From Bacteroidales bacterium (GTDB taxonomy: Bacteria > Bacteroidota > Bacteroidia > Bacteroidales > PUMT01), in NCBI GenBank assembly GCA_007132715.1, contig SLOE01000014.1, positions 1 through 59,866 of the forward strand: DNA of 59,866 nt, in the 5' to 3' direction. The notes under the pieces were generated by a model. It worked only from the letters and a program-made list of their open reading frames with translations. It was not told where the DNA came from and did no database searches. Positions 2,503 through 15,766 of this stretch are shown here, piece after piece. Both the position numbers and the translations under genes were made by a program. Position 1 is the first letter of the stretch. Every line of letters begins with the position of its first letter.

Positions 2503-3357
2503 TCAGCTGTTTTCCCTGTTCCATGTTTCTATTGCCAGCCTTACGCTTCCGTGCTTCAGAAGCAGGTCCCTCGCCTGATCGGCATCCAGGTTGAGCTCTT
2601 CCATTATCATCCTGGTGCCTCGCCGGACCAGCTTGTTGTTTGTAAGCTGCATGTTGATCATCCTGTTCCCCTTAACCTTGCCAAGCTTGATCATAAGTGA
2701 GGTGGTTATCATGTTCAGTATCATCTTCTGGGCTGTTCCTGCTTTCATCCTGGTGCTGCCCGTCAGGAATTCCGGACCCACGACAGCCTCAACAGCTATT
2801 TCGGCCGCCTCCGTTACGGGAGAACCGGGATTGCATGTTATGCAACCGGTAAGAAGCCCTTCGCGCCTTGCCTGTTGAAGTCCCCCAACCACATAGGGAG
2901 TGGTACCCGAAGCTGCAATGCCAATTATCGTGTCGTGCCGGTTTATATCGAACCTTTTCATGTCTTCCCATGCCTGTCCGGGATCATCCTCTGCCTTCTC
3001 CACTGCTTTTCGCAGGGCAACGTCGCCACCCGAAATAAGTCCGATAACCATGTTGCCGGGTACCCCGAATGTAGGGGGCAGCTCTGAGGCATCAAGCACT
3101 CCCAGCCTGCCGCTGGTGCCCGATCCTATATAGAATACCCTGCCTCCCTGCTCCATCCTGGGCAGTATCTCATTGATAAGTCTCTCTATCTGGGGAAGGG
3201 CTTTTCTGACAGCCTTATGCACCAGTCCATCCTCCCGGTTGATAGCCCCGACAAGTTCCCGGACTGACATTTTTTCCAGGTCCTGGTATCTGGAGGGCTG
3301 TTCGGTAATGATCTTTCTGAGGTCTTCGTCCTCTCTTTTGTCCATACGTTGCGTCAT
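2503..3357 (-). CDS. murQ: N-acetylmuramic acid 6-phosphate etherase
   Basis: MurQ cleaves the D-lactyl ether of MurNAc-6-phosphate to give GlcNAc-6-phosphate, the key cytosolic step of peptidoglycan sugar recycling. At 284 residues it is close to E. coli MurQ (about 298). The SIS phosphosugar-binding fold is evident from FYIGSGTSGRLGVLDASELPP, and the family-specific STRMKAGTAQKMILNM segment follows. The C-terminus has the small helical domain seen in the family (DADQARDLLLKHGSVRLAI). The gene lies 10 bp downstream of the kinase gene at 3368-4219 on the same strand, so the two should be co-transcribed and act in sequence. Confidence 0.96.
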   Translation of the reverse strand: MTQRMDKREDEDLRKIITEQPSRYQDLEKMSVRELVGAINREDGLVHKAVRKALPQIERLINEILPRMEQGGRVFYIGSGTSGRLGVLDASELPPTFGVPGNMVIGLISGGDVALRKAVEKAEDDPGQAWEDMKRFDINRHDTIIGIAASGTTPYVVGGLQQARREGLLTGCITCNPGSPVTEAAEIAVEAVVGPEFLTGSTRMKAGTAQKMILNMITTSLMIKLGKVKGNRMINMQLTNNKLVRRGTRMIMEELNLDADQARDLLLKHGSVRLAIETWNRENS

Positions 3358-3367
3358 AATAACTGTG

Positions 3368-4219
3368 TCAGGTTTTGTTTTCGTTATGGTAATTCAGCAG
3401 ACCCTCCATTGGCGCCCTTGTGATTATACCGGTCGAAAAACCGGCTTCATCTGCCGACCGGACCAGAATATCTTTGAAGTGCCATCCTATGCTGCCCGTC
3501 ACGTTGACCGGCATGGTTTCTGCCTCGGGATACTGCCTGATGTTGCGGTTGAAAAACTCAGAAAAGCTTTCACTGATTAGCCGGTAAACTGCAGGATTCC
3601 CGGTGTGCTCTGCCAGGAAATGGGTGAACCGGGCCATGAACCTGTTCGGGAAAGGCTTCCGGTAGACATGCTCCAGTATCTCTGCCGGCTCAAGCCTGTA
3701 TTTTTTGTAGAAATCCTCGCGTACCTGTTCCGGGAGCTGGTTTTTAAGTACATCAGACAGCAGTTTCCTGCCAAGTACCGTGCCGCTGCCCTCATCGCCA
3801 AGTATATAGCCCAGCGGGGATACATGCCTTACTATTTTGCTGCCGTTATAGTAACATGAATTGGAACCGGTACCCATTATGGCCGCTATACCCGGACGGT
3901 TGCCGCAAAGTGAGCGTGCAGCCGCCATAAGGTCCGATTCGACATATATCCTTTCTGCCTGAAAGAAATGCCCGAGAGGCCTTCTGACCTCCTCGTTCTT
4001 TTGCGGATTGGCACACCCCGCACCGTAAAAGAATATTGCGCTGTAGGGACCCCTCTGCAGCGTGAATTCAGCTTCAAGGGTTTGTGATATCTCATCCGGA
4101 CTTTGCAGAAACGGATTGATGCCTGCCGTTGTGCAGCACATCTCTTCCGTGTCCGGACCGCCGGAAATACACCAGGTTGTTTTTGTAGATCCGCTGTCTG
4201 CTACAAGAATCATGTTCAT
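3368..4219 (-). CDS. murK: BadF/BadG-type amino-sugar kinase, probable MurNAc kinase (MurK-like)
   Basis: This ASKHA-fold sugar kinase of the N-acetylglucosamine kinase/BadF family has 283 residues. The phosphate-1 loop is DSGSTKTTW near the N-terminus. A second nucleotide-contacting segment is MGTGSNSCYYNG, followed by LGDEGSGTVLGRKLL. Position directly upstream of murQ suggests it makes MurNAc-6-phosphate for MurQ, as established for MurK next to MurQ in Tannerella forsythia. GlcNAc or glucosamine phosphorylation is a possible alternative that sequence alone cannot exclude. The first ATG is at 4219, and a second ATG two codons later is also possible. A TAnnTTTG promoter lies about 27 nt upstream. 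Confidence 0.85.
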   Translation of the reverse strand: MNMILVADSGSTKTTWCISGGPDTEEMCCTTAGINPFLQSPDEISQTLEAEFTLQRGPYSAIFFYGAGCANPQKNEEVRRPLGHFFQAERIYVESDLMAAARSLCGNRPGIAAIMGTGSNSCYYNGSKIVRHVSPLGYILGDEGSGTVLGRKLLSDVLKNQLPEQVREDFYKKYRLEPAEILEHVYRKPFPNRFMARFTHFLAEHTGNPAVYRLISESFSEFFNRNIRQYPEAETMPVNVTGSIGWHFKDILVRSADEAGFSTGIITRAPMEGLLNYHNENKT

Positions 4220-4294: not shown

Positions 4295-4302
4295 TACTTT
4301 TG
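4295..4302 (+). promoter_or_regulatory. Candidate -7 element for the secreted amidase gene
   Basis: TACTTTTG matches TAnnTTTG. It overlaps the first ATG of the long ORF (4300), which argues that the real start lies downstream. It sits about 45 bp from the divergent murK -7 box. Confidence 0.45.
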
Positions 4303-4482
4303 ACATTTTTTACTCATCAAAAAATGGTTATTTTAGCGCACAATGAAACATGTCACCTTGAACCGGTAATTAATAAACGCCTCTATATGAGCTTGCTTTC
4401 CCCAGTCCTGGCTTTTTACCCGTTAACCGGACCGGTATCAATCCCGGAGGGACATCATGGCAGAAGCAGTTATACGGGCAGT

Positions 4483-7400
4483 GTGCCGGAACGAATAACT
4501 GCAAGGTGGCTGCTGACGTTATTCCTGTTACTTATTACTGCCATCCCGGCCGCCTCCCAGTCCCCAAGGGAACAGCGCCTTTCCGGGAGGGCCATGAACC
4601 GCCTCGAAGATGTCTCAGATCTTTTCACAGGCTGGCATCACCTGGGGCAGATGGGGGTTGACAGTGTGGCTGTTGATATAATAAATAATAAGGTATCCGT
4701 ATGGCTGAGCAGTCCGGTCACCCATATCCCCATTCGCTTTCCATGGCTTGAGTCATTGCGTGCAGATCTGCACAACCGGCTCGGATTCCGGTTCAGGAAC
4801 TATGAAATACTACTCTTTTCGGCCGGAAGGAGGCTTGAGGAATACATACCCAACTATTACAGGGCGCCATATATTGACCTGGATTCTTCGAGGATGACCG
4901 CAGCCATGGCAGACAGACCTCCTGTGGTTGCAGGTTCAGGATATACCGGAGATATTCCCGGACCCGGCACAGGAGTGGCCGGAACGAAAGCCCCGCCCCG
5001 CCAGCTCGTACGGCGGCAGGACAGGGAGTATTTTGGCGGGGGACTGTCGGGGGCGCACATTGCGCTCTGGCCAAGCCACGGTTATTATTATGAAGCTTCC
5101 CGCGACCGGTGGGAGTGGCAGAGAGCCCGGCTTTACAGTACCATAGAGGACCTGTATCCTTTTGCCTATATACGTCCTTACCTGTTGCCGATGCTTGAAA
5201 ATGCCGGTGCCACAGTGCTTCTGCCCAGGGAGAGGGATATCCGGCACCACGAGGTGGTGGTTGATAATGACGGTTCACACGGCTCTTCTGAAATTGTAAT
5301 AACCGGCGGTGAAAGAAACGGATGGGAGACGGTACCGGGGGGCTTTGCACTATCCGACACCCTGTTTGAAGGTGATAACCCTTTCAGGAAAGGGACACAT
5401 CTCAGGTTGCGGGCAGAAGGCGATGCCGATGCGTCTGTAACCTATATACCCGCTATACCGGATTGCGGAGAGTATGCTGTCTACGTCTCATGGGCTAAAG
5501 CAACGGAAAATGTGCAGGATGTAATATATACCGTTAACCATACAGGTGGAATCACACGTTTTATGGCGGACCAGACCATGGGTTACGGTACATGGATCTA
5601 CCTGGGGACATTTATGTTCAGGGAGGGAGCCGATATGGCGGCGGGCAGCGTGACCGTTTCCGTCCCGCCCGGGGCCGGCGGATATATTACAACTGATGCT
5701 GTGCGTTTCGGGGGCGGAACCGGCAATGTTGCAAGGAGGGCAGCGGACGAATATGTACAGTCCCTCTGGTCATTGCACGATGACGGCACCCTGGCAGAGA
5801 AAAGAGATTATGCTGACCCGGCCCTTCAACCGGAATGGAAGCTGAGCGGCAGGCCCCGCTATATGGAAGGGGCGCGTTACTGGCTTCAGTACGCGGGAAT
5901 GCCCGACTCATCGGTGTACAGCCTTAACCGGGGCCGCAACGACTACAACGACGACTTCATGTCACGGGGGGAGTGGGTTAACTACCTGATGGGCGCGCCG
6001 CTTACCCTGACCGGCGAACCCGATCCCGGGAGCCCCCTTATTCCCGTCGACGCGGTGCTGGCCTTTCATACCGATGCGGGCGTGACACCATCCGATTCGG
6101 TAATCGGCACACTGGCAATTTACAGCAGTGTGCGGACAGGCGGTGTGTTTCACGACGGCCGCTCCCGTATGGCCTCGCGCGACCTGTCAGATATAATACA
6201 GACCCAGATAGTAGAGGATATAAGGTTGCAGACCGACGGGCGGTGGACCAGGAGGGGGTTATGGGACAGGCAGTACTCGGAGGCATGGAGGCCGCATGCC
6301 CCGGCACTCCTTCTCGAGCTGCTATCACACCAGAACCTGGCTGACATGCGGTTCGGACTTGATCCGCGGTTCAGGTTCCTGGTAAGCCGGTCAATCTACA
6401 AGGGGATGCTCAGGTACCTGGCCTGGGAGCAGGGAAGGGAACCGGTGGTTCAGCCGCTTTCGCCCGAAGGCATGTATATACACTATTTGGGGGGCTCTGC
6501 CGTCCGGCTCGGCTGGAGGGAACAGGAGGACCCTTTTGAGCCCACCGCCGTGGCTGAAGGTTATATTGTCCATACCAGGATAGAGAATGGCGGCTTCGAT
6601 AACGGAAAGCGGACCACGCAGACATTTATGGATATTGACCTTCCGGAGAGCGGAACGATCTACGGTTTCAGAGTGACTGCAGTTAACAGCGGCGGAGAGA
6701 GCCTGCCCGGAGAGATACTTTCGGTTTTGCTGCCCGGTGAACAGGAGCAGCCGGGGGCTGCCCGGGAGGGAGCAGGTGAGGTGAGGCCCGTGCTGGTTGT
6801 GAACGGCTTTACGCGTGTTTCAGGACCGGCAGTATTTGATGAAGGAGAGCTTGGGGGACTGGCCCTGTGGGATGATGCGGGGGTAGGACACAGGTATGAT
6901 TTCAGCCATACCGGTGCACAATACGATTTCAGAAGACCCAGCGAATGGCTGGATGATGATTCCCCGGGCTGGGGCGCCAGCTATGCCGATATGGAGGGCA
7001 GGGTGATACCCGGCAACAGTTTTGATTACCCGGCGCTCTACGGCAGGGTGCTCAGGGAGGCAGGGTATACGTTCATTTCAGCCGGCAGGGAGGCTTTTGA
7101 GCAGGGTTTGTATGAACCGGCCGATTATGCGGCGCTCATACTGATTTTCGGCGAGCAGCGTGGCGTTCAAGAGTGGAATGATCCCGTATCGGTATGCTTC
7201 AAGGTGTTCACTCCCGGGATGATGGATGCGGTGAGGAGATTTGCGGACCATGGTACCGGGATAATGGTTACAGGTGCCTATATCGGAACCGACATGGTCG
7301 AAAGAAAAGATACACTGGCTGCAAATTTTGCACGGGATGTGCTCGGCTACACGTGGCGCACCAACCATGCATGCAACAGCGGTGCTGTTTACCTGACGGG

Positions 7401-7752
7401 CCGCACCCCTTACGGATTTCCTGAAGAGATAGGCTTCAATGCCGGGTACGACCCTGATATCTATACCGCAGAAGCACCGGATGCAATTGAACCTGCCGGT
7501 GAGAAGAGTATGCGCCTGTACAGGTACTCAGCTACAAAGACGAGTGCGGCAGTGCTGAAGTACGGCGACCGGAGGGTTGCGGCATTCGGTTTCCCTTTTG
7601 AGACCATCAAGTGCGATGAGCAGAAGCTTCATATGATGGATGCTGTCATGCGGTTCCTTAAAGGCGGGGTTGGTATGGGGGCTGACAATGCGAATCCCCG
7701 GACGGCCCTCCCGTTTTCCGGAACCTTTGACGCTCCCGGGCTTAAATTTTAG
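4483..7752 (+). CDS. Secreted N-acetylmuramoyl-L-alanine amidase-like protein with golvesin and FN3 domains
   Basis: This is a large exported protein of about 1089 residues, of the group often annotated as golvesin-domain or xanthan-lyase-like protein in Bacteroidota. The start is chosen at GTG 4483 because it leads straight into a signal peptide (ITARWLLTLFLLLITAIPAA). The ORF stays open back to 4300, but that ATG lies inside a promoter-like element. An Amidase_3-like catalytic fold is split. A WPSHGYYYE segment and a nearby Glu (YSTIEDL) precede a golvesin-type beta domain at about residues 263-412. VLAFHTDAG and LLLELLSHQN resemble the later zinc-ligand His and catalytic Glu segments. An FN3-like domain (about 666-750) and an unrecognised C-terminal domain follow. 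Its place beside murK/murQ suggests cell-wall cleavage. Activity is inferred. Confidence 0.8.
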   Translation: MPERITARWLLTLFLLLITAIPAASQSPREQRLSGRAMNRLEDVSDLFTGWHHLGQMGVDSVAVDIINNKVSVWLSSPVTHIPIRFPWLESLRADLHNRLGFRFRNYEILLFSAGRRLEEYIPNYYRAPYIDLDSSRMTAAMADRPPVVAGSGYTGDIPGPGTGVAGTKAPPRQLVRRQDREYFGGGLSGAHIALWPSHGYYYEASRDRWEWQRARLYSTIEDLYPFAYIRPYLLPMLENAGATVLLPRERDIRHHEVVVDNDGSHGSSEIVITGGERNGWETVPGGFALSDTLFEGDNPFRKGTHLRLRAEGDADASVTYIPAIPDCGEYAVYVSWAKATENVQDVIYTVNHTGGITRFMADQTMGYGTWIYLGTFMFREGADMAAGSVTVSVPPGAGGYITTDAVRFGGGTGNVARRAADEYVQSLWSLHDDGTLAEKRDYADPALQPEWKLSGRPRYMEGARYWLQYAGMPDSSVYSLNRGRNDYNDDFMSRGEWVNYLMGAPLTLTGEPDPGSPLIPVDAVLAFHTDAGVTPSDSVIGTLAIYSSVRTGGVFHDGRSRMASRDLSDIIQTQIVEDIRLQTDGRWTRRGLWDRQYSEAWRPHAPALLLELLSHQNLADMRFGLDPRFRFLVSRSIYKGMLRYLAWEQGREPVVQPLSPEGMYIHYLGGSAVRLGWREQEDPFEPTAVAEGYIVHTRIENGGFDNGKRTTQTFMDIDLPESGTIYGFRVTAVNSGGESLPGEILSVLLPGEQEQPGAAREGAGEVRPVLVVNGFTRVSGPAVFDEGELGGLALWDDAGVGHRYDFSHTGAQYDFRRPSEWLDDDSPGWGASYADMEGRVIPGNSFDYPALYGRVLREAGYTFISAGREAFEQGLYEPADYAALILIFGEQRGVQEWNDPVSVCFKVFTPGMMDAVRRFADHGTGIMVTGAYIGTDMVERKDTLAANFARDVLGYTWRTNHACNSGAVYLTGRTPYGFPEEIGFNAGYDPDIYTAEAPDAIEPAGEKSMRLYRYSATKTSAAVLKYGDRRVAAFGFPFETIKCDEQKLHMMDAVMRFLKGGVGMGADNANPRTALPFSGTFDAPGLKF

Positions 7753-7802: not shown

Positions 7803-9287
7803 ATGGAACAGCGGATAACATGTTTCCTCCAGGCCGGTAATACCGGCGACCTGCTTGAAACACTCAGGCAGCTTGACCTTTCAGGTGTATCAAGGCGGTC
7901 ATATATATTCGGCAAAAAAGATGATGCGGAGTCCGCCCTGCCCGAATCGGCCGAAATGCTTGATGTCCTGTCAATGCTTTCAACGGCTGCCGTTAAGAAG
8001 ATGGCCTCCCTGACCGATACCGATTATGTGCTCATATATACAAAATCCCTTCCGCTGAAGCTCGGAGAACATGCCCTGCGCCGCATGATACAGGTAGCCG
8101 ATGATACGGGTGCAGGAATGGTGTATTCAGACTATTTCGAGGTGAAAGAGGGTGAGGTGAGGCCATGCCCGGTGATCGATTATCAGCAGGGCAGCCTTCG
8201 TGATGATTTCAACTTCGGGTCGGTCATGCTCTACCGCACGGCGGCACTCAAAAGGGCTGTTGCAAAAATTCCCGAAGAATATCAGTTCGCAGGCCTTTAC
8301 TACCTGCGGCTCAGGGTTTCAGAGAAGCACCGCCTTTTCAGGATCCCCGAGTACCTCTATACCGAGATGGAGACCGACACCCGCAAGTCGGGCCAGAAGA
8401 TGTTCGACTACGTCGATCCGCGCAACAGGCAGATGCAGATAGAGATGGAGCGGGCATGCACCGGGCATCTCAAATCCATTGGAGGATGGCTGAAGCCGGA
8501 ATTCAAGGATGCAGACCTTACACAGGGCTCTTTTCCCGTTGAGGCATCGGTCATCATACCTGTCAGGAACAGGGTGAAAACCATTACCGACGCTGTCAGA
8601 TCGGTCCTTGACCAGAAAACCGGTATCCCTTTTAACCTGATAGTGGTGGACAACCATTCGTCCGACGGCACGACTGAACTGCTAAAAGAATTTGCAGCTT
8701 CTGACAACCGTTTGATACATGTGGTGCCGGTAAGGGATGACCTTGGAATTGGCGGCTGCTGGAACGAGGGGGCCTTCCATGAGCAGTGCGGAAGGTTTGC
8801 AATTCAGCTTGACAGCGATGACCTGTATATTGACGAAAATGTTGTTCAGAGGATCGTTGATGAGTTCTACGCCCAGCAGTGTGTCATGATAGTGGGCAGT
8901 TACAGGATGGTCAATTTCGGGCTTGAGGAGATACCTCCCGGACTTATTGACCACCGGGAGTGGACACCCGGCAACGGGAGGAACAATGCTTTGAGGATTA
9001 ACGGCCTGGGGGCTCCCAGGGCGTTCTTTACACCTGTTTTACGTGAGATAAGGCTGCCCAATGTGAGCTATGGAGAGGATTATGCACTGGGACTGGCAAT
9101 TTCGCGGCATTACCAGATAGGCAGGATCTATGACCCGTTGTACCTGTGCCGGAGGTGGGAAGAGAATACTGATGCATCGCTCGATATACAGAAGCTTAAT
9201 GCACATAACACCTACAAGGACAGGATAAGGACCATTGAACTGCTTGCAAGGATCGCCCTGAACAGGAATGAGGCCGGGGGCGAATGA
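7803..9287 (+). CDS. Tandem-domain family 2 glycosyltransferase
   Basis: The 494-residue protein has two GT-A-like halves. The C-terminal half begins near residue 248 with SVIIPVRNR and has the NDP-sugar/metal motif QLDSDDLY (about residue 337) and an acceptor-side YGEDYALG segment, so it looks active. The N-terminal half keeps the overall pattern ([18 protein letters not shown]) but has no DxD motif and is probably degenerate. No signal peptide or membrane segment is seen, so it should act in the cytosol. It starts a same-strand series with DUF4922, SpoIID and deacetylase genes. The donor and acceptor are unknown. Linkage suggests a cell-wall or amino-sugar product. Confidence 0.85.
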
Positions 9288-9402: not shown

Positions 9403-10353
9403 ATGGAGAATACCGGGCATGACAGGATAACCGGCATGGATGATTTTTTCAGGTCCCAGCTGGCTCAGTGGCCCCTGGCAAAGAAGAACTATGATGACCT
9501 GAACCGGGTTCTGATCAAAGATGTTGCGATGCCCGGCAACTGTCTTGTAAGGGTGCAGTTCAACCTTGCAAGGATGCGCTCATCTGCAGCCAGGGTGGAT
9601 AAAAAAAGCATCAGCGAAAGGCCCTGTTTCCTGTGTGCAGGAAACCTGCCGCCGGAGCAGAAAAAGATAATGTTCGGCGACAGCTACCTGGTGCTTGTCA
9701 ACCCGTTCCCTATATTCAGGCGCCACCTTACCATTGCGCTGACCGGTCATACAGACCAGCTCATCATGGGCAGGTTCGGCGATATGCTCAGGATTGCCCG
9801 TGCACTTGAGAATTATACAGTTTTTTATAACGGACCACGCTGCGGTGCCAGCGCGCCTGACCATTTCCACTTCCAGGCGGGGATCAGGGGATTCATGCCG
9901 GTAGAAGAGGAGGTGCGTACGCTTCCGCGGAAGCGCATAATAGAAGACGGTACAGTGGTTATACATGCCATGGAGGGGTATCACAGGAATACCCTCGTCA
10001 TGGAGGGTGATTCAGCCGGGGATCTTGACCGCTGGGTTACAAAAATTTATGATATATTGCAGGGTATGCAACCCGGCGAAAATGAACCGATGCTGAACAT
10101 CCTGGCAGGGTATTACGGGGGGATATGGAGGGTTGTTGTGTTTCCCCGGGGGAGACACAGGCCATGGCAGTTCGAAGCGGAGGGTGAAAAGCAGATACTG
10201 CTCAGTCCGGCCTCGGTCGATTTCGGCGGGGTATGGATAACACCCAGACAGGAAGATTATGAAAGGATTGACCAGGCTCTGATCATGGATATCTTCAGCC
10301 AGGTAAGCCTCGGGGAGGTAGCTTGGGCACAACTGCTCGACCGGCTGGGGTGA
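9403..10353 (+). CDS. DUF4922 protein, GalT/HIT-like nucleotidyltransferase or phosphorylase
   Basis: This 316-residue cytosolic protein has no signal peptide. I read it as a DUF4922 family member. Two features place it in the GalT/Apa branch of the HIT superfamily. The first is CFLCAGN at about residues 74-80, like the CxLCxGN zinc-site motif of galactose-1-phosphate uridylyltransferase. The second is a HFHFQ triad at about 154-158, equivalent to the catalytic HxHxQ. Such enzymes transfer or phosphorolyse a nucleotide between a sugar phosphate and an NDP-sugar. The flanking glycosyltransferase fits an NDP-sugar role. The true substrate is unknown. An Ap4A-phosphorylase activity is an alternative. 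Confidence 0.75.
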   Translation: MENTGHDRITGMDDFFRSQLAQWPLAKKNYDDLNRVLIKDVAMPGNCLVRVQFNLARMRSSAARVDKKSISERPCFLCAGNLPPEQKKIMFGDSYLVLVNPFPIFRRHLTIALTGHTDQLIMGRFGDMLRIARALENYTVFYNGPRCGASAPDHFHFQAGIRGFMPVEEEVRTLPRKRIIEDGTVVIHAMEGYHRNTLVMEGDSAGDLDRWVTKIYDILQGMQPGENEPMLNILAGYYGGIWRVVVFPRGRHRPWQFEAEGEKQILLSPASVDFGGVWITPRQEDYERIDQALIMDIFSQVSLGEVAWAQLLDRLG

Positions 10354-10439: not shown

Positions 10440-11774
10440 ATGCAACCAAAGATCAATGTAGGAATTATGTTTTCACCACGAATTGTCTTCTATCTGAACG
10501 GAAGATACCGGCACCTGGAGAGTGGTGTTGAGTTTGAGGGGCCGGGAAGCGCCGTGCTGGAGGACGGGAAACTGAGCTTTTCAATAGGCAACAGCCCCGT
10601 AACTGCCTCTTTTCCCGTTGAGCTCGAGCCGGTCGACTGCGAGGACTGCAGTTTTGACCTCAGGGAGGTTACCATCGGGATCAATTTCCACTGGGAGAGG
10701 AGGGAGGACCAGAGGTTCAGGGGAGGATTACGGGTTATCGAGGAGAACGGACTGCTTACGGCCGTCAACGTGCTGCCCCTGGAGGAATACCTGGTAAGCG
10801 TTATCTCGTCGGAGATGAGCGCCACTTCGTCGGCCGAGTTGCTGAAGGCACATGCGGTGATATCGCGCAGCTGGCTGCTGGCGCAGAAGGAGAAGGAGGC
10901 CCGGCTCAGGGAGGCTGGCAACTATGTTACCACCATAGAGAAGGAAGGTGAGAGGATAAGATGGTATGACCGGGAAGACCATTCCAACTTTGATGTTTGT
11001 GCCGATGACCACTGCCAGCGGTACCAGGGAATCACCAGGGCCGGAACACCTGCGGTTGAGGAGGCCGTTAATTCCACTTCGGGTATGGTGCTTGTATATG
11101 ACGGCAATATTTGTGATGCAAGGTATTCAAAGTGCTGCGGGGGCATAAGCGAGAAATTTGAAAATGTGTGGGAGCCGGTGGTGCATCCCTATCTTACAAG
11201 GGTGATAGACAACCCCGTAGATCCGCCCGGGTTCGACACCGGACTGTCGGCCGAGGAGGCTGCAAAAGCCTGGATACTTGGTAGTCCCGAAGCATTCTGC
11301 AATACCAGGAGCACATATGTCCTCAGCCAGGTACTGAATGATTATGACCAGGAGACTGTCAATTTTTTCAGATGGTCGGTTACACTGGAACAGAATGAGA
11401 TAAAGGATCTTCTGAAAAAGAAAGTGGATTTGGACGTTGGCCACATCATAGCTCTCGAGCCTGTTGAGAGGGGCGTGTCAGGGAGGCTGTTAAAGCTAAG
11501 GATCAGGGGAACCGGAGGCTCGATAGTTGTTGGCAAGGAGCTGGAGATAAGAAAGGCCCTTTCACCATCGCACCTTTACAGCTCGGCTTTTATAGTTGAA
11601 CCGGGTGAACCGGTTGACGGGATCCCTTCTGCATTTACACTCCGTGGTGCCGGCTGGGGACACGGCGTGGGCCTCTGCCAGATAGGTGCTGCCGTAATGG
11701 GTTCCGGGGGCTATTCATACCGGGACATATTGACACACTATTTCCCGGGCTCTGAGCTTGAAAAAAGATATTGA
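10440..11774 (+). CDS. SpoIID/LytB domain protein without signal peptide
   Basis: SpoIID-family enzymes are lytic transglycosylases that cut peptide-free (denuded) glycan strands. This 444-residue protein has the hallmark VSVISSEMSATSSAELLKAH segment with the catalytic Glu (about residue 124), then YSKCCGGISEKFENVW, and the C-terminal GWGHGVGLCQIGA with SYRDILTHYFPG. All match the family. The N-terminus (MQPKINVGIMFSPRIVFYL) has no hydrophobic signal or anchor, unlike the secreted spore enzymes, so it may act in the cytosol. It follows DUF4922 by 86 bp. Its stop overlaps a TTG codon in the next gene's frame. Bacteroidota do not sporulate, so the role must differ. Confidence 0.87.
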   Translation: MQPKINVGIMFSPRIVFYLNGRYRHLESGVEFEGPGSAVLEDGKLSFSIGNSPVTASFPVELEPVDCEDCSFDLREVTIGINFHWERREDQRFRGGLRVIEENGLLTAVNVLPLEEYLVSVISSEMSATSSAELLKAHAVISRSWLLAQKEKEARLREAGNYVTTIEKEGERIRWYDREDHSNFDVCADDHCQRYQGITRAGTPAVEEAVNSTSGMVLVYDGNICDARYSKCCGGISEKFENVWEPVVHPYLTRVIDNPVDPPGFDTGLSAEEAAKAWILGSPEAFCNTRSTYVLSQVLNDYDQETVNFFRWSVTLEQNEIKDLLKKKVDLDVGHIIALEPVERGVSGRLLKLRIRGTGGSIVVGKELEIRKALSPSHLYSSAFIVEPGEPVDGIPSAFTLRGAGWGHGVGLCQIGAAVMGSGGYSYRDILTHYFPGSELEKRY

Positions 11775-11794
11775 CACGCGTAACGACCGGCAGG

Positions 11795-12622
11795 ATGAGA
11801 GAGGTGTTAAGAAATACGACCGGCAGTACAGCTTTATTGCCGGTTAATGCTGCGGCTCTTGTTTTTTTGTTCCTTGTGACGGCGGCATTTTCGTGCAGTG
11901 GCGGCCCGGAGGCCGGACTGCCGGAGCCGGTAAGGGACAGGTTTGGTGCGATAACCGGTTTTGAGGATAACCGGGAAGTGTACCTGTTTTTTTCAGCACA
12001 CGACCATTTTGAGGGTATGGGGATAGTGATGGATGCACTCGGCCGCCATGGTGTGAAGGCATCTTTTTTCCTGACCGGTGAATGCCTCAGGGATCCGTCA
12101 AATCGCGGGGTCATTGAAGGGATTGTAAGCGCCGGGCATTACCTGGGTCCCCATTCAGACGCCCACCTGCTATATGTGCCCTGGGATGTGGGCCCCGAAA
12201 GAGATTCCCTGCTTGTAACCAGGAAGGAGTTTGAGGAGGACCTGCGGAAAAATATTGCGGCACTGGAACCTTTTGGTATCGTACCCGGTGATGTGAAGTG
12301 GTTCCTTACACCTTATGAATGGTATAACAGCGAGATTGTGGAATGGACCAATGAGATGGGGATGGAGGTTGTAAACTTCACTCCAGGCATCGGCACCAAT
12401 GCAGATTATACCACTCCCTCGATGGATAATTACCGGACATCCCGGCAGATCCTGCAACGCTTATGGGAGTACGAGGCGGAACAGGGTCTTGGCGGGAAGA
12501 TACTGCTGATACACCCGGGTATCGGACCTGAAAGGCCTGATCCTCTGTACTATCATCTTTACGATATTATAGCCATTATCAAAGCGAAGGGTTACCAGAT
12601 CGGTTCCCTGCCCGGAAATTGA
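11795..12622 (+). CDS. NodB-like polysaccharide deacetylase-family lipoprotein
   Basis: The ORF is open from TTG 11771, but ATG 11795 is preferred because it shortens an otherwise long n-region before the signal sequence. The hydrophobic stretch AALVFLFLVTAAFS ends at a Cys, suggesting a lipoprotein, though the lipobox is loose. The domain has the second NodB motif as GPHSDAH (about residue 119) and a WFLTPYEWYN segment matching motif 3. Motif 1, normally TFDDG, reads FSAHDHFEG, so one of the two Asp residues is replaced. It may be an unusual de-N-acetylase or a non-canonical relative. It sits in the salvage island between SpoIID and the AmpG-like carrier. Confidence 0.8.
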   Translation: MREVLRNTTGSTALLPVNAAALVFLFLVTAAFSCSGGPEAGLPEPVRDRFGAITGFEDNREVYLFFSAHDHFEGMGIVMDALGRHGVKASFFLTGECLRDPSNRGVIEGIVSAGHYLGPHSDAHLLYVPWDVGPERDSLLVTRKEFEEDLRKNIAALEPFGIVPGDVKWFLTPYEWYNSEIVEWTNEMGMEVVNFTPGIGTNADYTTPSMDNYRTSRQILQRLWEYEAEQGLGGKILLIHPGIGPERPDPLYYHLYDIIAIIKAKGYQIGSLPGN

Positions 12623-12642: not shown

Positions 12643-14502
12643 ATGGAAAAAACCAGTCACCGTTCAGCATGGGCATGGGTGCCCTCACTTTATTTTGCAC
12701 AAGGTATTCCCTATGTAGTGGTAATGACCGTATCGGTTATAATGTACAAACGCCTGGGGATATCCAATGCCGATATAGCCCTCTATACAAGCTGGCTGTA
12801 CCTGCCCTGGGTCATCAAGCCCTTCTGGAGCCCGGTGGTCGACCTGCTCAAAACAAAAAGGTGGTGGATTGTTGTGATGCAACTGCTGGTGGGTGCCGGA
12901 CTGGCGGGTGTGGCGTTTACCATACCGGTGCCCGGCTTTTTCCAGGCCACGCTTGCTTTCTTCTGGCTGCTGGCCTTCAGCTCGGCCACCCATGACATCG
13001 CTGCCGACGGTTTCTACATGCTGGGGCTGAAGGAGCATGAACAGGCTTACTTTGTCGGTATCAGAAGCACATTTTACAGGTTTGCCATGATCACGGGTCA
13101 GGGACTTCTGATCATACTCGCAGGCTTTATAGAGACGCGGACGGGACTTGAACCGGTCAGTATCACGGTGACTGCCGGACCTGATGTGCCTGCAGGTGTG
13201 CATAAGTACCCCGCGACAGGTGAACAGCTTGAGGGGAGGCGTAGCTTCATTGCCGGCACCGAAGAAATAGAGCTTTCCACAGCCGGCATAGACCGGGAAA
13301 CGGCCCGGGAAATGCTTGCCTTTGCAGAGGAGCAGAATATACTCAATGGATTTGTGGAACCTGAACCTGAATTTGAACCCTCGGTTTCATGGTTTGCCCG
13401 TTCTGTATCAGGGCCTCTCGGGGTCTGGCTCAGGGAGAGGTTCGGTGTTGCAGACGATATACTGTCAGTGGAGGCAATGCAGGGTAATATTGCCCTTGTG
13501 GGTGTTTCATTGTCGTCTCCTCCCGGTCCCGGTGAAGAGGTGGTGCTCAACACCGGACTCCAAAGGGGGGACGGCAGTATAGGGATTGTCAGCGGAGAGA
13601 GACTTGTGTTCACGTCCGCTAACTGGGACCACACAGCATGGGTCGCCATCCAGCTTGACCCGGCACTGGACAGGACTGCCGAGGCGCATTTTGAAGGGCT
13701 TTCCGGCAACATCCCGTTTGCCTGGACGGTGACCTTTTTCTTCCTTGCTGTTCTGTTCGTAGTGTTTATGGTATACCACCGCTTCTTCCTGCCGTTCCCT
13801 GCGGCTGACAAACCTGCGGTGAATGAAAGGGGAACAAGTGTGCTTGCAGGTTTCATCAAGACATTCAGCGCTTTTTTCAGGAAGGCGAATATCGTTCCGG
13901 CCCTTGCATTTATGCTCCTGTACCGGCTTGGGGAGGCCCAGATAGTGAAGCTTGCCTCGCCTTTCATGCTTGATCCAAGAGAGGTGGGGGGACTGGGACT
14001 CAGTACCGGTGATGTGGGCCTGATATACGGCACGATTGGAATTGTAGCACTCACGCTGGGCGGCATACTGGGCGGCATTGTGGCTTCCAGGAAAGGACTT
14101 AAGTTCTGGGTGTTTCCCATGGCCATTGCCATGAATGTTCCCAATATTGTGTATGTGCTTCTGTCGGTTTATACGCCACAGAACATGTGGGTCATTTCGG
14201 GCGGGGTTGCATTTGAGCAGTTTGGTTACGGGTTTGGATTTACCGCATACATGCTTTTTATGATACACTTTTCAGAAGGAAGTCACAAGACTGCTCATTA
14301 TGCCTTCTGTACCGGGTTCATGGCCCTGGGTATGATGCTGCCGGGTATGATATCGGGATGGATTCAGGAGATCGTAGGTTACATCAATTTCTTCATATGG
14401 GTGGTCATATGTACCATCCCGGGGTTTATAATGATCTTCTACCTGAAGATAGATCCGAAGTTCGGGGTCAAAAAGAAGGAGGAAGAAAGGCCGGGGGACT
14501 GA
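12643..14502 (+). CDS. AmpG-like MFS transporter with a large central insertion, candidate muropeptide/MurNAc importer
   Basis: This inner-membrane carrier of the major facilitator superfamily has 619 residues, about 130 more than E. coli AmpG. The N-terminal half is typical (SLYFAQGIPYVVV, LYTSWLYLPWVIKPFWSPVVD, SSATHDIAADGFYM). After about residue 165 a soluble segment of about 190 residues interrupts the transporter (to about 355), and the second set of membrane helices follows. AmpG proteins bring GlcNAc-anhydroMurNAc peptides into the cytosol. The flanking murQ, murK and namZ support import of cell-wall sugars here. Whether the cargo is a muropeptide, disaccharide or free MurNAc is unknown. 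Confidence 0.85.
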   Translation: MEKTSHRSAWAWVPSLYFAQGIPYVVVMTVSVIMYKRLGISNADIALYTSWLYLPWVIKPFWSPVVDLLKTKRWWIVVMQLLVGAGLAGVAFTIPVPGFFQATLAFFWLLAFSSATHDIAADGFYMLGLKEHEQAYFVGIRSTFYRFAMITGQGLLIILAGFIETRTGLEPVSITVTAGPDVPAGVHKYPATGEQLEGRRSFIAGTEEIELSTAGIDRETAREMLAFAEEQNILNGFVEPEPEFEPSVSWFARSVSGPLGVWLRERFGVADDILSVEAMQGNIALVGVSLSSPPGPGEEVVLNTGLQRGDGSIGIVSGERLVFTSANWDHTAWVAIQLDPALDRTAEAHFEGLSGNIPFAWTVTFFFLAVLFVVFMVYHRFFLPFPAADKPAVNERGTSVLAGFIKTFSAFFRKANIVPALAFMLLYRLGEAQIVKLASPFMLDPREVGGLGLSTGDVGLIYGTIGIVALTLGGILGGIVASRKGLKFWVFPMAIAMNVPNIVYVLLSVYTPQNMWVISGGVAFEQFGYGFGFTAYMLFMIHFSEGSHKTAHYAFCTGFMALGMMLPGMISGWIQEIVGYINFFIWVVICTIPGFIMIFYLKIDPKFGVKKKEEERPGD

Positions 14503-14548: not shown

Positions 14549-15766
14549 TCAGTAAAGGAAATATTCTGCCGCTTTTTCGGCGAAAGAGGCCTCCTGCCGG
14601 GTCCATATCTCCAAAATATCCTGAACCATGAACCGTTCTGAAAATGCTGTCCTCACCTGGTCGGTGCCCACCACCTTGTCGAACATATCGTGGCGGGCCG
14701 GGTCGCAAAGCTCAAACGGATCCTTGTCCGGGTGAAGATCCTTCATCTCCTGCATTATCCAGAACTGTATGAGCGAAAGTTCAGCCTTACGCACGTCGGT
14801 AAGATGAATCTGTACCCCGCTGACCATTGTACCGCTCATCACACTGTAGTAGGGCCTGAAATGGACGGGCCTGAATATCACCCCTGGCAGTTCCAGGTTA
14901 TTGAGCCTGACTGCCAGCCTTCCGGCATCGATCCAGTCCGCCCCGACAAGCTGGAACGGCAGGGTATAACCTACTCCGATGTTGTAAACGTACAGTTCGC
15001 CGAGAATGCCCGATACGGGATAATAGTAAGCCGAATGGACATGAGGTATGTGAGGGGAGGTAGGCACCCATGGAAGTCCAGTATCCTCAAAAAGCATATC
15101 GCGATCCCATCCCTCCATCCTGATCACGGTGAGGTTCACAGGGCCGCTTTCAAGCAGCCCCTCTTCGTTCAGGAACAGGGCAAGCTCGCCGGTGGTGAAC
15201 CCGTGCACATAGGTGACAGGGAACTGGCTTACAAAAGATATGAAGCCATATTCGACAAGTGGCCCTTCGAACTTTTTTCCGCCCAGGGGGTTGGGCCTGT
15301 CCAGCACCATGAACTCAATGCCGTTCTCAGCGGCAGCTTCCATGGCAAGACCCATTGTGCTTATGTAGGTATATGACCTTGAGCCTATATCCTGAATGTC
15401 GTAAACAAGAATATCGATATCCCTGAGCATCGCGGCTGTGGGCTTGCGGGTGGCCCCATAAAGGCTGAATAGCGGAAGTCCGGTTACGGCATCGGTTGCG
15501 GTCTCCACCTTCTCTCCTGCAGCAAAATCTCCCCTTATGCCGTGTTCGGGGCCGAAAAGTGCCACCAGGTTCACTTCCGGGGCCCCGAAAAGTATATCGG
15601 CGGTTGATCTGAGCCTGCTGTCCACCCCGGTGGGGTTCGTTATGAGTCCCACTCTTTTGTTCATCAGGGGTTCAAAACCTTTTTCTCCCAGTACCTCTAT
15701 ACCGGTCTTCACCTGCGCCTGGAGCAGGTTTGATGAAAGAATAATAAAAGCGATGAATAATCTCAT
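14549..15766 (-). CDS. namZ: Exo-beta-N-acetylmuramidase NamZ (DUF1343 family)
   Basis: NamZ removes MurNAc from the non-reducing end of peptidoglycan fragments, outside the cytoplasm. The 405-residue protein starts with a signal peptide (LFIAFIILSSNLLQAQ). The DUF1343 signature LVALFGPEHGIRGDFAAGE lies at about residues 67-85 and contains the Glu-His pair thought to be catalytic. Further conserved stretches are LVYDIQDIGSRSYTYISTM and FMVLDRPNPLGG. It is convergent with the AmpG-like gene and divergent from the transglutaminase gene. Together with the importer and MurK/MurQ it forms a plausible complete route from released MurNAc to GlcNAc-6-phosphate. Confidence 0.92.
   Translation of the reverse strand: MRLFIAFIILSSNLLQAQVKTGIEVLGEKGFEPLMNKRVGLITNPTGVDSRLRSTADILFGAPEVNLVALFGPEHGIRGDFAAGEKVETATDAVTGLPLFSLYGATRKPTAAMLRDIDILVYDIQDIGSRSYTYISTMGLAMEAAAENGIEFMVLDRPNPLGGKKFEGPLVEYGFISFVSQFPVTYVHGFTTGELALFLNEEGLLESGPVNLTVIRMEGWDRDMLFEDTGLPWVPTSPHIPHVHSAYYYPVSGILGELYVYNIGVGYTLPFQLVGADWIDAGRLAVRLNNLELPGVIFRPVHFRPYYSVMSGTMVSGVQIHLTDVRKAELSLIQFWIMQEMKDLHPDKDPFELCDPARHDMFDKVVGTDQVRTAFSERFMVQDILEIWTRQEASFAEKAAEYFLY

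Follow-up and report, generated by a model that had tools for sequence, protein, structure and literature searches.

A three-gene module of Bacteroidota that suggests an undescribed intracellular breakdown of recycled cell-wall sugar

The gene cluster and its counterpart in Tannerella forsythia

The window (the whole stretch of 59,866 nucleotides that was analysed) carries a cluster of genes (Table 1) in which a gene coding for a DUF4922 protein stands between those of a tandem-domain GT2 glycosyltransferase and of a protein of the SpoIID/LytB type. An earlier note on this DNA had claimed a glycosyltransferase directly upstream of the DUF4922 gene, which is borne out by the GT2 gene, and had suggested a link to cell-wall salvage, which is now strongly supported by the co-occurrence of the gene with those of GT2 and SpoIID, by its linkage to AmpG and by synteny with the muropeptide operon of T. 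forsythia; SpoIID as a third partner was absent from that first reading.

Table 1. Genes of the salvage cluster in the window (positions are those of the window)
Feature	Position	Strand	Remarks
MurQ, N-acetylmuramic acid 6-phosphate etherase	2503..3357	-	TIGR00274, 311.9 bits (cut-off 302)
MurNAc/GlcNAc kinase, MurK-like	3368..4219	-	weak NagK_SO3507 match, far under the cut-off; adjoins murQ; synteny with T. forsythia murK
Golvesin-domain protein	4300..7752	+	matches Amidase_3 weakly; corresponds to the 'xanthan lyase' at the start of the ampG operon in T. forsythia
GT2 glycosyltransferase, tandem-domain	7803..9287	+	494 aa; directly upstream of DUF4922
DUF4922 protein	9403..10353	+	316 aa, ATG start; by sequence, an HIT enzyme of the GalT/Apa/GGP branch
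SpoIID/LytB-type protein	10440..11774	+	444 aa, without signal peptide; TIGR02669 (SpoIID_LytB), 177.7 bits (cut-off 83.3)
Polysaccharide deacetylase	11771..12622	+	between SpoIID and ampG; context only
AmpG-type muropeptide permease	12643..14502	+	619 aa, including an insert of ~190 aa
NamZ exo-beta-N-acetylmuramidase, YbbC type	14549..15766	-	counterpart of T. forsythia ybbC (PMC5388701)

The cluster shares its gene set and order with the ampG-murTKQ operon of T. forsythia, which is transcribed as a single transcript (Tanf_08345-08385) containing genes for xanthan lyase, gtf, gtf, lytB, ampG, ybbC, murT, murK and murQ, lytB corresponding to the SpoIID gene (PMC5388701). The two differ in that murQ, murK and namZ of the window lie on the opposite strand and a deacetylase gene precedes ampG, and murT was not identified in the window cluster. 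Judged by gene order alone, Tanf_08355 (annotated as 'gtf') should be the DUF4922 gene. The AmpG of T. forsythia imports peptide-free GlcNAc-MurNAc and GlcNAc-anhMurNAc, AnmK is not predicted in this organism, and its metabolic strategy for anhMurNAc was stated as still to be explored (PMC7670621). The insert of the window AmpG (approximately residues 165-355) falls in the middle of the transporter; this long form (~600-640 aa) is found in many other genomes, and others have the usual form of 430 aa.

The GT2 protein contains one conserved catalytic GT-A domain (approximately residues 248-490) after a diverged N-terminal half, and in its family the motifs LDSDD (336-340, D337-D340) and GED (424-426, E425-D426) are invariant. 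Its best matches in the PDB are chondroitin synthases, and its structure model, built from a three-row alignment, is weak (pLDDT 41). Invariant in the SpoIID family are E125 of an SSEM motif, which aligns to the SpoIID of solved structure 4rwr, and the residues H181, C187, H191 and C192. No hydrophobic N-terminal leader that would direct export to the wall compartment was found in the family, whose aligned N-termini read xxEPxIxVGIL. Because of these leaderless N-termini, and because the protein is in some genomes fused to enzymes dependent on nucleotides of the cytosol, the natural reading is that the SpoIID protein of the module would be located in the cytosol.

DUF4922 as a HIT protein of the GalT branch

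The translated gene matches the Pfam family PF16269 (DUF4922) with 199.6 bits (E=3e-59), well over the gathering cut-off of 23.6 bits, and it also matches PF19327 (Ap4A_phos_N) with 22.1 bits (E=1.2e-4), under the cut-off of 23.1 bits for that family. A literature search on the function of bacterial DUF4922 gave no paper, those found on DUF4922 dealing with plant GGP genes. Genome contigs yielded only two named relatives, and no relatives were found among viral contigs. The earlier note had called attention to a CFLCAGN pair and an HFHFQ triad, and both are present, in ERPCFLCAGN (C75 and C78) and DHFHFQ (H154, H156 and Q158), and kept across 74 homologues; they are not a product of chance. 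In all 74 of them H108, H116, N143, H154, H156, N232, R249 and G276 are unchanged, and C75 (73/74), C78 (72/74) and Q158 (72/74) are nearly fixed; poor conservation of the triad, named in that note as what would speak against its reading, was thus not seen. The predicted zinc ligands are C75, C78, H116 and H154, and H156 is the predicted nucleophile.

A search of the PDB with the single DUF4922 sequence (phmmer) gave no match, so that an alignment profile was needed. With a profile of 37 aligned DUF4922 proteins, the sole significant relative in the PDB was yeast Apa2 (4i5t, E=3.5e-5), and DUF4922 H156 is aligned with a residue that is His in 4i5t and Ala in the chain of 4i5v. The profile match to Apa2, which is also the top match by fold, takes in NPFPIF..H and YNG..G..DHxHxQ; the alignment covers the protein only in part, and the genomic context is not that of dinucleotide metabolism. 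Comparison of the profile with Arabidopsis VTC2/GGP (GDP-L-galactose phosphorylase, EC 2.7.7.69) by hhalign gave 93.8% (E=1.8e-7) over 201 columns and both HIT domains, a result that is a lead and not a test. These ~200 HIT columns take in HxHFQA and a C-terminal region (NPAxxxxxG...KRKEDY...EVSL), whereas the aligned part of VTC2 is devoid of the CxxC and the bacterial DUF4922 proteins have GT2, SpoIID and AmpG as partners. In the reaction described for GGP, a covalent nucleotidyl-His intermediate forms and phosphate then resolves it (PMC10069634). The match to E. coli GalT (EC 2.7.7.12) runs via CFLCAGN and HPHGQ, with the CFLCAGN and HxHxQ motifs in equal order (60%, E=8.7e-5) and with the pairing of H116 and H115 off by three residues; it is weaker than that to GGP (60% against 94%), the sequences are strongly diverged and there is no galactose operon. 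An unrelated control gave a probability of 1.3%.

An AlphaFold model of DUF4922 from a three-sequence alignment was poor (pLDDT 54, pTM 0.60), and a Foldseek search with this weak model gave, at E<0.001, Apa2 at the top (E=4.6e-6), the DUF4931 protein 4qvu and no others, so that the significant matches were of the GalT/Apa type only and no fold unlike HIT came up. The assignment of DUF4922 to the GalT branch of the HIT proteins is therefore supported by sequence and profile and weakly by fold, and the GalT-type enzyme of the earlier note was right at the level of the branch. That it may make or break an NDP-amino sugar, as the same note suggested, is still an inference. Within it, sequence comparison places the phosphorylases Apa2 and plant GGP as the probable nearest characterised relatives, with GalT after them.

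Side observations concern other copies. One genome (G224) carries a second DUF4922 copy (L064:9592-10599) with a degenerate catalytic motif (HLHFYG) that has lost the Gln; it lacks a neighbouring GT2 gene and may be a diverged paralogue. Three further genomes (G027, G136 and G160) have weak and short PF16269 matches (frames of 166-184 aa) and do not contain the GT2 and SpoIID partners; perhaps these belong to another branch of small HIT-like proteins.

Distribution of the module and of salvage genes across Bacteroidota

DUF4922 is part of a module of three genes, coding for the tandem GT2, DUF4922 and the leaderless SpoIID protein, which is apparently undescribed. Two samples were surveyed, 297 genomes of the phylum and 148 of the window's order, with three genomes in both, making 442 distinct Bacteroidota genomes. 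Strong matches in the first were found for DUF4922 in 41 genomes (leaving out three further weak matches), for GT2 in 40 and for SpoIID in 40, with all three in 39. In the order sample, DUF4922 and GT2 occur in an identical set of 38 genomes and SpoIID in the same 38 and one more (G381). Taken together, 77 of the 442 genomes have any of the module genes at full strength and 74 have all three, counts that are inflated by shared ancestry. The distribution is patchy over many Bacteroidota families, with fusions in several of these, and co-occurrence is kept when the genes sit on separate contigs (for example in G074, G216 and G176). At 73 DUF4922 loci, GT2 lies directly upstream or is fused in 54 and SpoIID lies directly downstream or is fused in 27. 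Fusions join GT2 to DUF4922 (L060, L075 and L077), DUF4922 to SpoIID (L072, L073, L076 and L078) and, at a locus cut by the contig end (L074), all three.

Other recurrent neighbours (c1, c4 and c7, that is, a response regulator with a SpoIIE domain, a histidine kinase and a U32 peptidase) were rejected as clues to function, being generic and present in part of the sample only, and the neighbourhood survey found no export or polymer genes consistently linked to DUF4922 loci. Among individual genomes, G381 (93% complete) is the only one of the order sample with a leaderless SpoIID in which neither DUF4922 nor GT2 was found, and G230 has a GT2 copy that is fused to DUF4922 (L060, on G230:C9) as well as a second, separate copy (L101, on G230:C1) beside SpoIID in a cluster with ampG, namZ, murK and murQ. 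In one family (f35; L033, L039, L049, L051, L053 and L054), a GT4-type glycosyltransferase gene directly follows SpoIID, usually with GT2-DUF4922 after it, and is a possible fourth component of the module in that lineage.

The presence of salvage genes was compared between 44 module-positive and 36 module-negative genomes. AmpG (TIGR00901, E<=1e-20) is found in 44/44 of the former and 6/36 of the latter (Fisher p=2e-16), all these matches scoring under the family cut-off, and in some module-positive genomes it is encoded far from the module. Two of the six module-negative hits (G301 and G080) match the window AmpG only weakly and are probably other MFS proteins. In two of the other four genomes (G021, which has AnmK too, and G076), a leaderless NagZ-like GH3 enzyme adjoins ampG, and in another (G026) such an NagZ-like GH3 enzyme lies ~7 kb from it. 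AnmK is rarer with the module, being present in 19/44 module-positive and 33/36 module-negative genomes (Fisher p=5e-6), and the 19 genomes that keep it imply that the module is no simple replacement of AnmK. The window's own genome has an AnmK match in two pieces (G000:C68:6165-7271) within one frame of 476 aa, longer than usual, and the same is seen in G330.

A NagZ-like match at E<=1e-10 was found in every module-negative genome tested, whereas four of the module-positive ones (G055, G078, G120 and G188) gave none. GH3/NagZ was rejected as a clean marker of absence, since exported GH3-beta-lactamase proteins occur in genomes of both kinds; because most module-positive genomes have them, the absence of NagZ is proven in a few genomes only. 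MurQ was likewise discarded as a partner of the module, with 35/44 module-positive against 22/36 module-negative genomes (p=0.09) and nine of the 44 without it.

A possible route for the cytosolic opening of imported disaccharides

For peptidoglycan salvage in Bacteroidota, the steps as far as import (NamZ, AmpG and MurT) and those from free MurNAc on (MurK and MurQ) are understood, and the gap is the cytosolic opening of the imported disaccharide. The analysis singles out three unassigned genes of the T. forsythia operon that are nearly inseparable over 442 genomes and sometimes fused, and gives each a proposed reaction. It is also the first proposal of a function for DUF4922 proteins of bacteria. 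As a whole, the module suggests an undescribed intracellular breakdown of recycled cell-wall sugar.

The favoured reading, held with somewhat less than even confidence, is that DUF4922 is an NDP-sugar phosphorylase that would act together with a GT2 running in reverse to split the GlcNAc-MurNAc imported by AmpG, the SpoIID protein opening or cleaving the anhydro-sugar. The module would work in the cytosol, on GlcNAc-MurNAc and GlcNAc-anhydroMurNAc brought in by AmpG. GT2 would transfer GlcNAc from the disaccharide to UDP (GlcNAc-MurNAc + UDP -> UDP-GlcNAc + MurNAc), H156 of DUF4922 would take the NMP from an NDP-sugar, most likely this UDP-GlcNAc, and phosphate would resolve the bound NMP (UDP-GlcNAc + Pi -> UDP + GlcNAc-1-P), the net result being a phosphorolysis of the disaccharide in which UDP is catalytic. 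On the MurNAc side, SpoIID might open the 1,6-anhydro ring or cleave longer fragments, and MurNAc would pass to MurK and MurQ. The uphill GT2 step would be pulled by the DUF4922 step, and the especially tight pairing of these two would be explained by this. The stereochemistry is compatible with the proposed reverse reaction, in that an inverting GT2 pairs an alpha UDP-sugar with a beta linkage; GT2 enzymes usually run forward, which counts against it. The best matches of DUF4922 are phosphorylases that use Pi, and this was counted in favour of a phosphorylase.

The module would thereby do the cytosolic work of NagZ and AnmK with the energy conserved as a sugar phosphate. Its proposed substrates are equal to those of the E. 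coli NagZ/AnmK route for anhydromuropeptides imported by AmpG, whereas the sequences are unrelated and, as proposed, an NDP-dependent phosphorolysis and a SpoIID-type enzyme replace the hydrolase and the kinase. A bolder form of this reading is doubtful: GT2, DUF4922 and leaderless SpoIID would make up a cytosolic complex for the UDP-dependent phosphorolysis of GlcNAc-(anhydro)MurNAc, with no need for NagZ or AnmK and with a metabolic rather than wall-remodelling role for SpoIID. If true, there would be a peptidoglycan recycling route without NagZ or AnmK.

The same enzymes could also work in the anabolic direction, DUF4922 making an NDP-sugar from NDP and a sugar-1-phosphate, GT2 building a cytosolic glycan or glycosylating a muropeptide, and SpoIID trimming or releasing the product. 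GT2 is laid out like the chondroitin synthases that are its best PDB matches, the GGP reaction was reported to be reversible (PMC10069634) and a GT2-DUF4922 fusion would recycle the NDP freed by GT2; this alone, however, accounts neither for the full coincidence with AmpG nor for an operon that includes NamZ, MurK and MurQ, and export and polymer genes are without consistent linkage, which makes it unlikely. About equally unlikely is a GalT-like exchange for wall synthesis, in which DUF4922 would move UMP between UDP-GlcNAc and MurNAc-1-P, or the reverse, to give UDP-MurNAc directly from salvaged sugar, with GT2 and SpoIID preparing the sugars. It would agree with the GalT-like layout of the zinc site (CxxC...HxH) and with the needs of T. 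forsythia, which is unable to make MurNAc, is devoid of murA, murB, glmS and glmU and must get its UDP-MurNAc by salvage (PMC5790795), but over the full length a phosphorylase, GGP, is the closest relative, Apa2 is the sole significant PDB relative by sequence, the module is present in many Bacteroidota families beyond MurNAc auxotrophs, and an AmgK/MurU route to UDP-MurNAc has already been proposed for T. forsythia (PMC7670621).

That DUF4922 might serve in housekeeping or stress as an Ap4A phosphorylase, with only incidental neighbours, is suggested by Apa2 as its best PDB match, in sequence and in fold, and by the PF19327 score just under the cut-off; the obligate co-occurrence and fusion with GT2 and SpoIID and the full association with AmpG would be out of place for Ap4A housekeeping and render this very improbable.

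In module-positive genomes that have ampG elsewhere (L119-L127), ampG regularly adjoins a gene for a BadF-type kinase and often one for an exported GH3 protein, forming a second conserved salvage cluster.
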